Positions 2,663 through 7,087 of a stretch of DNA of 7,087 bases are shown here, piece by piece. Both the position numbers and the translations under genes were made by a program. The notes under the pieces were generated by a model, which worked only from the letters and a program-made list of their open reading frames with translations, made no database searches and had not been told where the DNA came from. The DNA is taken from positions 1 to 7,087 of the forward strand of contig JADHWZ010000112.1 of the NCBI GenBank assembly GCA_016783225.1, given 5' to 3'. Source of the stretch: Dehalococcoidia bacterium (GTDB lineage: Bacteria > Chloroflexota > Dehalococcoidia > GIF9 > UBA5620). Position 1 is the stretch's first letter; every line of letters starts with the position of its first letter.

Positions 2663-4342
2663 TTACTCGTGGGTGATTTTGTATACGACGTTTTCCATCG
2701 CCCCTGTCACGTAAATGGCGCCTGAATCCGAAACCTCGACATCACTCATGACACCAGTGCGAGGAGTTCCGGCTACGGGCACCAAGCCAATCGCCAAATC
2801 TTCGACCAGGGGCGTTATTGCGCCTGAATCCGGATTAATCTCGACTAGCCGTTGTAATTCAGCCTCAACCACCAGTATTTTGCCGTCCGCCTGAACCGCA
2901 ATGCCCTCCGGCATTTTTAGCCCTGAAGCCACCACTTCCTTTTCTCCGGTGGAAAGATCGACGCGTACGACATTACCACCCATAGCCTCGGTGACATAAA
3001 CCGTGTTTTCGCCCGCAAATGCAAGGCCAACTGGGCCACCTAGCTCCCCGGCAACTGCCTCACGATTCTCCCCCTCGGCTCCTGAGACTTTGAGCAAACT
3101 GCCAGTGCCCAGCTCCGCCACAAGAAAGCTTCCATCATCCAACGGCAATACATCATAGGGCACCATGAAGTCATGAAGGGTTCTAGTAGCTTCATTGGTT
3201 TTGAGGTCGAATTCCTGAACGGTTCCGGTGAACCAACTGCTCAGAAGCAGGGTATCATCTTTCACTGATGCGACAAAGGGATATTCCAGGTCACTGGCCT
3301 GCATGCGCGCCACATTCGTGACCGCTCCAGTATTCCCATCAATCTCCCACAGGCCCATGATACCGGCCACATACAATGTTTCTCCCGCAATTCCTATTCC
3401 TCCCGGGCAAGTGACATTGCCTTCGACAAAGGTCTCTACTTTGCCTGTCTTCGTGTCTACACGATAAATCCCGTTGGTGGACATGTTGGAAATGAAGAGC
3501 TCGTCTTTTGAGTTCAACGCCAGGTTGTCTACGGCTGGTATGACGTCTGCAACAACCGTTTTCTCACCGGTTTCGATACCCACTCGAACTACCTGACCTG
3601 CGGCGGTATCTACCGCGTATAGATTACCCTTGGAGTCGAAATTGACCGCTGCGGGGGTTTCGAGGCCTTCCGCCACGGTTTCCATCTTGCCAGTGTCTAC
3701 ATCAACCCGTACAACCTCTCCTTTGAACCAAAGAGGCCCGTATAACTTGTTGTCCGGGCCGAAATCAAATCCATTCAGTCCTCCCATCCCTTCGAGGATG
3801 AGCCGAGGTTTCTCTTCTCCCTTAAGGTCGATCTCGTATAGAGCGTCACCGAGGAAGACCTCAGCAACGAACAAGCGGCCCTCCTGGTTAAAGGCCAGAG
3901 AATTGGCTCCCGGTATGCCTTTGGCCAGAACTTGAATCTCGTCACCAACCTGGCGATGGACTTTGCCCACAATGTAGGATGTCCAGTACAGGTGCCCGTC
4001 CGGGCCGAACTCTAGGTCATCCGCTAAACCCTCAGGCGGGCCGATGTATTCAGTTACTTGCACTTCGCCTTCCTGGGCCACTATCTTGTAAGTTGTCTGG
4101 CCAACTACGCTGCCGGCATACAGATTATCCTCGCTATCGAACGTTAGGCCATGTACCCCGTTGAAATAGGAACCAGGAACCAGGATTTCTACCTCATAGC
4201 CCGGGGCAACTGCCGTTGGTTCAGTGGTATGAAACACAGCAGGCTCTACAGCGGAGGGGGCACACGCCACAAGTGCAGATAACGACACCAGTACCAGTGC
4301 CACGAATAGAAAGGAGGTTTTCTTGACAAGATTTCGCTTCAT
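2663..4342 (-). CDS. Secreted lipoprotein with twelve NHL/SMP-30-like beta-propeller repeats
   Basis: Complete 559-residue protein. The N-terminus is a lipoprotein signal: KRNLVKK positive region, hydrophobic segment (about 10-26), and lipobox L24-V-A-C27. The mature protein should be lipid-anchored at Cys27 outside the cytoplasmic membrane, followed by a Pro/Ala/Thr-rich linker (about 28-47). The rest is a run of twelve units of roughly 40-45 residues with the pattern G-(L/V)-x-F-(D/G)-x2-(G/D)-x-L-Y-V-(A/T)-x-(hydrophobic/G)-x4-(V/I)-x-R-V-D. They start near 62, 105, 145, 188, 229, 270, 312, 354, 394, 436, 477 and 530. Such repeats resemble NHL, SMP-30/gluconolaconase-like and virginiamycin-B-lyase-like propellers. 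No catalytic or metal-site set was recognised, so a binding or scaffold role is as likely as an enzyme. AAGGAGGG (plus 4348-4355) lies 5 bases before the ATG, and a good promoter lies just upstream. The gene reads toward the aldehyde oxidoreductase but is separated from it by 350 bases. Confidence 0.88.
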   Translation of the reverse strand: MKRNLVKKTSFLFVALVLVSLSALVACAPSAVEPAVFHTTEPTAVAPGYEVEILVPGSYFNGVHGLTFDSEDNLYAGSVVGQTTYKIVAQEGEVQVTEYIGPPEGLADDLEFGPDGHLYWTSYIVGKVHRQVGDEIQVLAKGIPGANSLAFNQEGRLFVAEVFLGDALYEIDLKGEEKPRLILEGMGGLNGFDFGPDNKLYGPLWFKGEVVRVDVDTGKMETVAEGLETPAAVNFDSKGNLYAVDTAAGQVVRVGIETGEKTVVADVIPAVDNLALNSKDELFISNMSTNGIYRVDTKTGKVETFVEGNVTCPGGIGIAGETLYVAGIMGLWEIDGNTGAVTNVARMQASDLEYPFVASVKDDTLLLSSWFTGTVQEFDLKTNEATRTLHDFMVPYDVLPLDDGSFLVAELGTGSLLKVSGAEGENREAVAGELGGPVGLAFAGENTVYVTEAMGGNVVRVDLSTGEKEVVASGLKMPEGIAVQADGKILVVEAELQRLVEINPDSGAITPLVEDLAIGLVPVAGTPRTGVMSDVEVSDSGAIYVTGAMENVVYKITHE

Positions 4343-4496: not shown

Positions 4497-4617
4497 ACAC
4501 AAAATCAAAGATTGGAAATTCGCATCTATCAAGATATTGCCTTTTCGTTCTCCGGGCTAGGTCACTTCGCATAGCAGGTCACCCAAAGCTCATTGGTGGT
4601 CTTCGGCTGCGGCTCGT

Positions 4618-4647
4618 TTGACACCCTATCTGGCTTTTTGTTAAACT
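4618..4647 (+). promoter_or_regulatory. Candidate cobO promoter placing the start at GTG 4656
   Basis: A perfect -35 hexamer TTGACA (4618-4623) is followed after 18 bases by TAAACT (4642-4647), which matches the -10 consensus at four of six positions. Transcription would begin near 4653-4656, essentially at the GTG codon at 4656. This would make a leaderless or near-leaderless message and would exclude the TTG at 4593 as start. The -10 is weak, so the call is tentative. Confidence 0.42.
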
Positions 4648-4655
4648 CGCATAGA

Positions 4656-5216
4656 GTGGCAAAAGGAGAAGCCAAGACCTTACCTTCCAAAACCTCAACC
4701 AGGAGACTGGTAGAGATCTTCACTGGTGATGGAAAAGGCAAGACATCTGCAGCGCTGGGGATAGCTCTCCGTGCCCTGGGGCATGGGCTCCGCGTCCACA
4801 TCATTTATTTCATGAAAGGTGAATTTCCCTACGGAGAACAGAGAATTCTATCTCAACTGCCCAATGTCACCTTTGCCAGATTTGGGTTTGAGACTTTTGT
4901 CGACCCAGATAACGTTAAGCCGGAGGAGAAGGAGGAGGCTCGAAAAGCCCTGGAGGCCGCCAGAACAGCTATTCTCGGCTTGCAGTACGACATAGTAGTC
5001 CTGGACGAGGTAAATGTAGCCGCGGCCTGGAATCTAATTGACCTTGAAGACACAATAAAGCTGATAGGCGACAAACCAGAAAAGGTCGAACTCATACTTA
5101 CCGGCCGCTACGCTGACCCGAGGCTAATCGAGCAGGCCGACCTGGTCACCGAAATGGTCAAGGTGAAGCATCCTTACGACAAGGGAACCCTATCTCGTGA
5201 AGGTATCGACTACTGA
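4656..5216 (+). CDS. cobO: Corrinoid (cob(I)alamin) adenosyltransferase, CobO/CobA/BtuR type
   Basis: It transfers the 5'-deoxyadenosyl group of ATP to a Co(I) corrinoid to make adenosylcobalamin in the cytoplasm. With the GTG start the protein has 186 residues, within the family range. The P-loop FTGDGKGKTSAALG lies at about 22-35, followed by LRALGHGLRVHIIYFMKG (38-55), the acidic strand VVLDEVNVA (about 114-122), LILTGRYADPRLIEQADLV (146-164) and the typical family end HPYDKG..REGIDY. It appears complete. The start is uncertain: the frame is open from 4575 and could begin at TTG 4593 (207 residues), but neither start has a Shine-Dalgarno. GTG 4656 is preferred because a candidate promoter ends just before it. 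AAAGGAG occurs at 4662-4668 with no usable start codon after it. The mutase gene begins 21 bases after the stop, pairing cofactor maker with cofactor user. The family is certain; a role in salvage versus de novo synthesis cannot be separated. Confidence 0.92.
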   Translation: MAKGEAKTLPSKTSTRRLVEIFTGDGKGKTSAALGIALRALGHGLRVHIIYFMKGEFPYGEQRILSQLPNVTFARFGFETFVDPDNVKPEEKEEARKALEAARTAILGLQYDIVVLDEVNVAAAWNLIDLEDTIKLIGDKPEKVELILTGRYADPRLIEQADLVTEMVKVKHPYDKGTLSREGIDY

Positions 5217-5237: not shown

Positions 5238-6899
5238 ATGTTGGAGCAAGGCAAACCGGATGGACTGGCAGAAAAGGCCAGCCAGTGGCATGCCAGAGCC
5301 CAGGCTCTCGCGGAAAGGCAAGACTCCTTTATCACTACTTCCGGCGTCCCCGTTGAACGTCTCTATTCACCGGTAGATATCGCTGATACGGACTACCTTC
5401 AGGATTTGAGCTTCCCTGGCGAGTATCCATTTACCCGTGGTGTCCACTCTACCGGCTACAGAGGCAAACTGTGGACAATGCGCATGTTTGCTGGCTTTGG
5501 CTGTGCCGACGAGACCAATGCCCGCTACAAGTACCTGCTCGAGCATGGCGAGACCGGGCTCAGCGTTGCCTTCGACTTCCCTACTCTAAACGGCTACGAT
5601 TCTGACGACCCAGAGGCTCGAGGGGAATTTGGCAAGTGCGGCGTGGCCGTCTCTTCCTTAGCTGATATGGAGATCCTATTTGACGGCATTCCTCTCGACC
5701 AGATAACTACGTCTATGACCATCAATGGGCCAGCAGCAGTTATCTGGGCGATGTACCTAGCCAACGCTCAAAAACGAGGTATTCCCCTGGACAAACTAGG
5801 CGGCACCATACAAAATGACATCCTCAAAGAGTATATGGCACAGAACGCTTTCATCTTTCCTCCCCAACCCTCCGTGCGCCTTATCGTTGACACCTTTGAA
5901 TTCGGCATGCAACAAGTACCGCGCTGGAACACCATAAGCATCAGCGGCTACCACATTCGTGAAGCCGGATCTACGGCTGTTCAGGAGTTAGCTTTTACCC
6001 TGGCCGATGGCCTTACCTATGTTCAGGCAGGCATTGACCGCGGGCTGAAGGTAGATGACTTCGCTCCGAGGCTCAGTTTCTTTTTCAACTGTCACAATGA
6101 TTTCTTCGAGGAAATCGCAAAGTTCCGTGCTGCCCGCCGTATCTGGGCACGAGAGATGAAACAGCGCTTCAACGCCAGCGAACGCTCCCAGTGGCTCCGC
6201 TTCCACACCCAGACTGCCGGTTGTTCTCTGACTGCTCAGCAGCCAGAAAACAACATCGTCCGCACCACCATTCAAGCTCTGGCGGCCATCCTCGGTGGTA
6301 CTCAATCGCTACACACCAATTCGATGGACGAAGCTCTTGCCCTCCCCTCAGAGAAGGCGGTGACCATTGCCTTACGCACCCAGCAGATTATTGCCCATGA
6401 AAGCGGTGGCACCAATACCATTGACCCCCTTGGCGGCAGTTACTTCGTGGAATACCTAACCAATGAGACAGAAAAGGCTGTCTACGACTACTTTGCCAAG
6501 ATTGACTCGTTGGGCGGCGTCATACCCGCTCTGGAAGCCGGCTTCTTCCACAGGGAAATTGCTGATTCAGCTTACCGCTACCAGCGAGAAATAGATGGCA
6601 AGCAACGCACCATTGTCGGTGTCAACCAGTATACTATGGATGAGCCGGTCACCATTCCTATTCTGCAGATGGATAAGGAAGGTGAGAAACGACAGCTGGA
6701 GCGACTCAGCCAACTACGCCGAGAAAGGGATAATGAACTGCTTTCAGCAAGGCTCGAGGCATTGCGCCAAGCTGCACAAGACAACGACAATCTCATGCCT
6801 TATATTCTGGAAGCCGTAAGTGCCTACGCCACTTTGGGCGAAACCTGCACTGTGCTGCGCAAGGTCTTCGGAGAATATCGACTGCCAGCATTGGTATAA
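5238..6899 (+). CDS. AdoCbl-dependent acyl-CoA mutase, large (substrate-binding) subunit; methylmalonyl-CoA mutase family with altered pocket
   Basis: Complete 553-residue protein of the methylmalonyl-CoA mutase large-subunit/TIM-barrel type. It contains [19 protein letters not shown] (66-84), [11 protein letters not shown] (106-116), [15 protein letters not shown] (189-203), [17 protein letters not shown] (231-247), APRLSFFF (276-283), [18 protein letters not shown] (321-338) and [18 protein letters not shown] (353-370). It ends near 553 with no C-terminal DxHxxG cobalamin domain, so a separate small subunit is needed. Against Propionibacterium mutase numbering the offset is a constant 5: Gln197, His244 and Arg87 are kept, but Tyr89 is Phe84, Arg207 is Gln202, Arg82 is Lys77, Tyr75 is His70 and Met78 is Gly73. 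Loss of the carboxylate-binding Arg207 and of Tyr89 argues against methylmalonyl-CoA as substrate. Phe at this position and Gln for Arg207 recall isobutyryl-CoA mutases. The start ATG has a modest GAAGG (5227-5231) 6 bases upstream. It follows cobO by 21 bases and overlaps the next gene as TAATG. The family is certain; the substrate is inferred. Confidence 0.93.
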
Positions 6900-7087
6900 T
6901 GCAAAATGGCAAAGCAAAATTCAAAGAGAAATCTAAAGGACGAGTTTGCAGGTTTGCGCTGGATGTTATCGGATTTGTTGAGCGACTGCCGAAAGGGCAG
7001 GTTTCAAGTATCATCGGTGACCAGCTATTACGGAGTGCCACTAGCATTGGAGCGAATGTAGTTGAAGCACAGGGTGCGGGTTCGAGG
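6899..7087 (+). CDS. Four helix bundle protein (23S rRNA intervening-sequence protein / S23 family), N-terminal part
   Basis: The first 63 residues of a gene that runs off the right edge. The protein starts [20 protein letters not shown] and continues with a VIGFVERLPKGQ stretch and the hallmark block IGDQLLRSATSIGANVVEAQ, ending GAGSR at the edge. The QLLRSxTSIGAN..EA..A.S pattern identifies the family first described from insertions in 23S rRNA genes (Pfam 23S_rRNA_IVP), small proteins of about 115-130 residues forming a four-helix bundle. Its molecular role is not established. Here it is not in an rRNA gene: its ATG (6899-6901) overlaps the mutase stop TAA (6897-6899) as TAATG. There is no Shine-Dalgarno before it, so translation probably depends on re-initiation by ribosomes ending the mutase. 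Nothing in the family suggests it belongs to the mutase enzyme; it may be an opportunistic insertion or hitch-hiker. An ATG at 6907 in another frame gives no family match. Confidence 0.85.
   Translation, partial: MQNGKAKFKEKSKGRVCRFALDVIGFVERLPKGQVSSIIGDQLLRSATSIGANVVEAQGAGSR

Follow-up and report, generated by a model that had tools for sequence, protein, structure and literature searches.

The window analysed here, a stretch of 7,087 bases, carries on its forward strand an open reading frame (5238..6899) that starts with ATG and encodes the large subunit of a B12-dependent acyl-CoA mutase, 553 residues long, with an isobutyryl-CoA-mutase-like set of predicted pocket residues. The protein matches PF01642 over the full length of the profile (743 bits, positions 2-512 of 512) and TIGR00641 at 776 bits, which bears out its preliminary description as a B12-dependent mutase. 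It does not pass the methylmalonyl-CoA mutase (MCM) equivalog PRK09426 (638 versus 876 bits), and profile searches found no B12-binding domain in it. Only 21 bases upstream on the same strand lies a gene for a CobA-type ATP:cob(I)alamin adenosyltransferase (4593..5216; PF02572 200.9 bits, TIGR00708 170.4 bits at a cut-off of 167.75), the true start of which is uncertain. The reverse strand holds the N-terminus of an acyl-CoA dehydrogenase (2-319, by profile match), a protein of the aldehyde ferredoxin oxidoreductase (AOR) family (468-2312; AFOR_N and AFOR_C), a possible source or sink of branched acids or aldehydes, and a beta-propeller-like protein with a lipoprotein-like N-terminus (2663-4342; SMP-30 and DUF6923 matches, NHL weaker). 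Downstream of the mutase, a forward reading frame (6902-7087) resembles the 23S rRNA intervening-sequence (four-helix) family, its 28.7 bits to PF05635 lying below the cut-off of 33.8. No B12 subunit is encoded in the 188 bases that follow the mutase within the window, and a riboswitch and Rfam search of all 7,087 bases gave no match up to E = 1.

The closest solved relatives by sequence are 2-hydroxyisobutyryl-CoA mutase (HCM, 4r3u) and then the human and P. shermanii MCMs. An AlphaFold2 model of the protein, built with 29 rows, reached a mean pLDDT of 68.8; owing to values below 50 for pocket residues 53-86 and 115-119, it was set aside for pocket geometry. The letters discussed below come from alignment, and the residue numbers and roles are the established ones of P. 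shermanii MCM. Alignment confirms the constant offset of 5 to this numbering used in the preliminary description, as well as the five replacements it had placed: Tyr75 by His70 (codon at 5445..5447), Met78 by Gly73, Arg82 by Lys77, Tyr89 by Phe84 and Arg207 by Gln202 (5841..5843). Phe84 occupies the first specificity site and Gln202 the second; the codons of Met83 and Phe84, which stand for Gln88 and Tyr89, lie at 5484..5489. Leu117 (5586..5588) takes the place of His/Gln122, and Trp170 (5745..5747) that of Leu175. On the cofactor side, Gln192 (5811..5813) and His239 (5952..5954), the counterparts of Gln197 and His244, are kept as had been stated; all the codons named here are on the forward strand. 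Every cofactor-side residue checked in the alignment is retained (Gln192, Tyr238, His239, Glu242, Asn361 and Glu365), including the counterparts of Gln197, Tyr243, His244, Asn366 and Glu370, the set that we take to be catalytic.

All 80 of the 80 genome loci kept, the best of at least 581 confirmed, have Phe84 and Gln202, as do 119 of 119 database relatives from the best 120 of 7999 proteins, a sample that includes the query itself. Being fixed across both samples, these substitutions are not due to chance. His70 occurs in 76 of the same 80 loci (best of at least 581). In an alignment of 71 rows, among them 33 of the Phe/Gln clade, 24 of the Tyr/Arg type and 4 of IcmA, site 89 is Phe in all 33 clade rows and Tyr in all 24 Tyr/Arg rows, and site 207 is Gln and Arg, respectively, with the same completeness. 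Leu117 is also invariant in the clade (33/33) and shared with IcmA and HCM, the 24 Tyr/Arg rows having Gln or His. Trp170 is a mark of the clade: Trp in 33/33 of its rows, Phe in 4/4 IcmA rows, Leu in HCM and Leu or Ile in the Tyr/Arg rows. Met83 is found in 31/33 clade rows, against Gln in all four of IcmA. Among the five replacements, then, Phe84 and Gln202 are diagnostic but Gly73 and Lys77 are not, for within the 33 clade rows position 73 varies (16 Gly, 15 Met, 2 Leu), as does position 77 (17 Arg, 15 Lys, 1 Gln). Tyr and Arg at the two specificity sites mark MCM according to Jost et al., as cited in PMC7238569. Here they are Phe84 and Gln202, and with both MCM-marking sites replaced the earlier claim of a non-methylmalonyl pocket is well supported.

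Phe and Gln at these two sites are the pair that we take to be that of isobutyryl-CoA mutase. The same pair is present in four actinobacterial proteins: P0184 (HPTGYRGRT-F-Q; JGI name isobutyryl-CoA mutase large subunit), P0215 (YATGYRGRT-F-Q; NCBI name methylmalonyl-CoA mutase/isobutyryl-CoA mutase large subunit), P0123 (YPTGYRGRT-F-Q; NCBI name methylmalonyl-CoA mutase) and P0125 (HSTGYRGRT-F-Q; NCBI name methylmalonyl-CoA mutase family protein). P0125 and P0123 fall in one group with P0184 at a support of 100; source names within this IcmA group are mixed, and the majority say methylmalonyl-CoA mutase. The counterpart of His70 is His in P0184 and P0125 as well, and the protein studied here differs from the P0125 pattern only by Lys77, which is not fixed in the clade, and Met83. 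The suggestion that the residue set fits no known class was thus mistaken, since actinobacterial proteins of the isobutyryl-CoA mutase group share the Phe/Gln pair and P0125 has H-S-T-G too. As a predicted pocket, H-S-T-G...F...Q is the isobutyryl-CoA-mutase pattern, and the true oddities of the predicted set are Met83 and Trp170.

Comparison with characterized systems narrows the candidate substrates. Like IcmA of the actinobacterial IcmA/IcmB system, the protein is a free-standing large subunit with H/Y-x-T-G, Phe plus Gln, and Leu at site 122; unlike IcmA, to which it is 50-52% identical, it has Met83 and Trp170 in place of Gln and Phe, and most of its relatives' genomes show no dedicated small subunit. 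With IcmF it would share the proposed reaction, and the NCBIfam IcmF model matches at 380.8 bits; this is far under the cut-off of 1500, however, and the 553 residues comprise the mutase only, with no GTPase or B12 domain fusion, so identity with IcmF was set aside. HcmA (4r3u), the best solved relative, likewise has Gln at site 207 and Leu at 122, but its identity is 50% and site 89 is Ile, as also in Xaut_5021 and the M. petroleiphilum protein; given Phe at this site, 2-hydroxyisobutyryl-CoA mutase was set aside. Xaut_5043, which we take to be the pivalyl-CoA mutase, has Leu and Asn at the specificity sites and 39% identity to the 553-residue protein. Among the substrates put forward in the preliminary description, isobutyryl- and n-butyryl-CoA are favoured by the Phe/Gln pair, and pivalyl-CoA is not. 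MCMs (human, P. shermanii and the Tyr/Arg type of Chloroflexota) resemble the protein in the family match, in the cofactor-side residues and, in some loci, in CobA, MeaB or epimerase neighbours; they differ at Tyr89, His/Gln122 and Arg207, all of which are replaced here.

A mutase for some other uncharged branched acyl-CoA (2-methylbutyryl-, isovaleryl/pivalyl- or 2-hydroxyisobutyryl-CoA), for which the Phe/Gln pair would give general hydrophobic specificity only, is an unlikely reading, albeit one with points in its favour. The clade-specific Trp170 and Met83 differ from IcmA, and pivalyl- and isovaleryl-CoA are among the reported substrates of IcmF (PMC10481361). Yet neither the Ile of HCM nor the Leu/Asn of Xaut_5043 occurs at the specificity sites of any clade member listed (best 80 loci of at least 581; best 120 proteins of 7999).

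Other mutases with unusual pockets were encountered in the same searches. L094 and L096, from the genomes of L001 and L004, respectively, have Asn for His244 and Cys or Ser for Arg207, each with its own B12 subunit adjoining. L098, a Chloroflexota mutase also from the genome of L004, has Leu at site 89 and joins Xaut_5043 in the tree, where two long branches meet. L173 of Sinorhizobium medicae pSMED02 is an HCM-like mutase, sister to HCM, in which site 89 is Val and site 207 is Gln; it possibly represents another substrate class.

The Phe/Gln clade is large and mostly from Chloroflexota. The protein is 93% identical to P0003 and 82% to L002; its closest relative by sequence among the loci kept (best 80 of at least 581) is L001 at 94%, and the other clade loci tested share 66-79%, except one from Deinococcus at 60%. 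Chloroflexota Tyr/Arg mutases reach 62% identity to it, IcmA and HCM alike show 50-52%, and the P. shermanii and human MCMs 45-46%. The clade forms a single branch with a support of 85 in a quick tree of 71 rows and of 89 in a quick tree of 60 rows (11 long or near-duplicate rows dropped). In a careful tree of 38 rows taken from the 71, its support is 100/100 with all columns and 95/97 with the pocket columns removed. A tree of the mutase large subunits had been proposed in the preliminary description as a check, and with all columns of the 38 rows it does place the clade, together with IcmA and HCM, outside all Tyr/Arg rows (100/97); this branch, however, is lost without the pocket columns, when the split appears in 6% of bootstrap trees and the AU test does not reject a topology constrained to unite the clade with the Tyr/Arg rows (p-AU 0.39). 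In the 60-row quick tree, clade plus IcmA receives a support of 10, and clade plus Tyr/Arg is again not rejected (p-AU 0.385). The clade itself is robust, whereas it is the pocket columns that carry its link to IcmA. Because the link to IcmA and HCM is gone without these columns, the Phe/Gln pair may be convergent between the clade and IcmA, and we regard the protein as isobutyryl-CoA-mutase-like by its predicted pocket rather than by demonstrated IcmA descent. Two Phe/Gln mutases on contigs labelled Thermoplasmata (L013 and L033), with a B12 subunit and MeaB adjoining, lie inside the Chloroflexota clade, a placement due to transfer or to mislabelled bins.

On this evidence we propose, and think it probable, that the reading frame at 5238-6899 encodes the large subunit of an adenosylcobalamin (AdoCbl)-dependent isobutyryl-CoA/n-butyryl-CoA mutase whose partner B12 subunit is encoded elsewhere. 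The substrate is predicted from the residues, and the direction, the partner subunit and the pathway are likewise predictions. The adenosyltransferase encoded next door would make adenosylcobalamin, which a MeaB-type GTPase would load into a separate B12-binding subunit; the loaded subunit would then dock on the large subunit, which would bind the acyl-CoA. The predicted pocket, in which Arg207 and Tyr89 are both missing, offers nothing to anchor a substrate carboxylate, and Phe84 and Gln202, in place of the Tyr and Arg that hold the carboxylate of methylmalonyl-CoA, would let an uncharged branched acyl group fit. In the established chemistry of this family, hydrogen abstraction from the acyl group by the adenosyl radical is followed by migration of the thioester carbonyl, so that isobutyryl-CoA becomes n-butyryl-CoA. 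In the cell, isobutyryl-CoA derived from valine would be converted to n-butyryl-CoA for beta-oxidation, or the reverse. Across 11 genomes, mostly metagenome assemblies, methylmalonate-semialdehyde dehydrogenase (MMSDH) exceeds its cut-off in 3, 3-hydroxyisobutyrate dehydrogenase (HIBADH) in 1 and both in none; sub-cut-off matches exist in 8/11 and 9/11 genomes, respectively, and the controls pass the cut-offs in 5/14 (MMSDH) and 1/14 (HIBADH). These counts weakly suggest that the usual valine route may be incomplete in these genomes. Against an isobutyryl-CoA mutase stand the higher identity to Tyr/Arg mutases than to IcmA, the differences from IcmA at Met83 and Trp170, the mixed names in the IcmA group and the gene context in one genome, G004, described below.

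We examined 50 genomes (G001-G050), reached via 50 of the best 80 loci (of at least 581). A separate Tyr/Arg mutase is present in 45 of the 50 genomes that carry the Phe/Gln gene: 40 of these mutases are full-length and free-standing, one is partial (G044) and four are of MutB type (G024, G034, G036 and G041), with a fused B12 domain in three of the four, the G034 gene lying near a contig end. Two genomes (G008 and G021) yielded only an unclassifiable mutase fragment, and no Tyr/Arg type was found in three (G001, which is the genome of L001, G004 and G045). Both large subunits are encoded in one locus in L007, L008, L012, L048 and L072. The metagenome-assembled G012 (L010, L035) has twelve PF01642 matches, two or more of them of the Phe/Gln type.

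Neighbouring genes in the relatives were identified by searching with named reference proteins. Among 46 loci with 4 kb on both sides, CobA lies within 4 kb of the mutase in 6, and a B12 subunit and MeaB lie within that distance in the same 10. As in the window, CobA is directly upstream of the mutase in L002 and L004. Gene order in L008 is thiolase, carboxyltransferase, biotin carboxylase, Tyr/Arg mutase, epimerase, CobA, Phe/Gln mutase, B12 subunit and MeaB; L218, in the genome of L002, has a Tyr/Arg mutase followed by methylmalonyl-CoA epimerase and a B12 subunit. The Phe/Gln gene is clustered with carboxyltransferase genes in L006. In G004, which yielded no other mutase, its cluster includes a carboxyltransferase and a PYC_OADA-domain protein. 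A comparable cluster with an adenosyltransferase and MeaB is described for Syntrophothermus lipocalidus, a reported isobutyrate isomeriser, in PMC5017805.

These carboxyltransferase clusters in L006 and L008 and the lone mutase of G004 are what an MCM with an altered pocket, still working in the propionate pathway, would explain; overall identity is also higher to Tyr/Arg mutases, and kinship with them is not rejected. We nevertheless consider this improbable, as both MCM-marking sites are replaced in every member listed (best 80 loci of at least 581; best 120 proteins of 7999) and a separate Tyr/Arg mutase exists in 45 of the 50 genomes.

The 50 genomes were searched for B12-binding subunits with one query, at E 0.001 and E 1e-15. 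Subunits beside a third mutase were set aside, even where that mutase sat at a contig end, and G012, with its 12 mutase matches, was excluded. For some of the genomes G020-G050, the Phe/Gln position is that of the full-length match left over; G023, G025 and G033 each offered two candidates for it. In the 39 genomes with full-length Tyr/Arg and Phe/Gln genes, one B12 subunit was left in 31, none in 7 and two in 1 (G015), counts from mostly metagenome assemblies in which absences are unsure and a strongly diverged subunit could be missed. Of these 31 single subunits, 19 are solitary, 6 adjoin the Tyr/Arg gene and 6 lie closest to the Phe/Gln gene; for four of the last group (G005, G011, G014 and G016) both large-subunit genes are close. 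In G002, the genome of L002, the two large subunits are accompanied by a single B12 subunit, which is encoded at the Tyr/Arg locus. Large and small subunits number five and four in G003 and four and three in G006 (a one-contig record, CP070630.1, titled chromosome); in each of these two genomes, the large subunit that lacks a small one is the Phe/Gln type. Three of the MutB genomes, all but G036, still have a free B12 subunit.

An alternative in which the Phe/Gln protein and the Tyr/Arg mutase are partners within a single hetero-oligomer, like MutA and MutB, would account for the lone B12 subunit left to both large subunits in 31 of 39 genomes and for the shared loci L007, L008, L012, L048 and L072, but it is very improbable, given that the cofactor-side residues checked are retained and that G024, G034, G036 and G041 pair the Phe/Gln gene with a MutB-type mutase, with a free B12 subunit in all but G036. 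Sharing of a subunit between two working enzymes is the reading that we prefer for the excess of large over small subunits in the relatives: across Chloroflexota, one AdoCbl-carrying subunit may serve both the MCM and the isobutyryl-CoA-mutase-like large subunit, a proposition that we hold to be evenly balanced. This likely double use of a B12 subunit is the fresh point of this analysis. A literature search found no statement of it in the texts covered; most subscription papers lie outside that search, which makes this weak evidence of absence. For 'isobutyryl-CoA mutase' and 'Chloroflexota' together, the literature searched, mostly without subscription papers, led to a mutase cassette that belongs to a Syntrophomonadaceae bin.

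All relatives with a readable source name (among the best 120 of 7999 proteins) are called methylmalonyl-CoA mutase despite their Phe/Gln sites, as the preliminary description had anticipated in judging such an automatic label probably wrong. IcmF is already widely misannotated as MCM, according to PMC7764203, so mislabelling of this kind is known. The protein is probably a divergent, mislabelled isobutyryl-CoA-mutase-like enzyme and not one with a pocket of no known class, and many Chloroflexota proteins called methylmalonyl-CoA mutase probably perform a different reaction. As a consequence, reconstructions of the propionate pathway from Chloroflexota genomes may include the wrong gene and overlook a route through isobutyrate/butyrate (valine). 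Should the B12 subunit be shared, this would be an unusual modular use of the cofactor subunit of a radical enzyme: the two large subunits would be in competition for it, and a single CobA/MeaB set, by loading the cofactor, would apportion flux between the propionate and (iso)butyrate routes.
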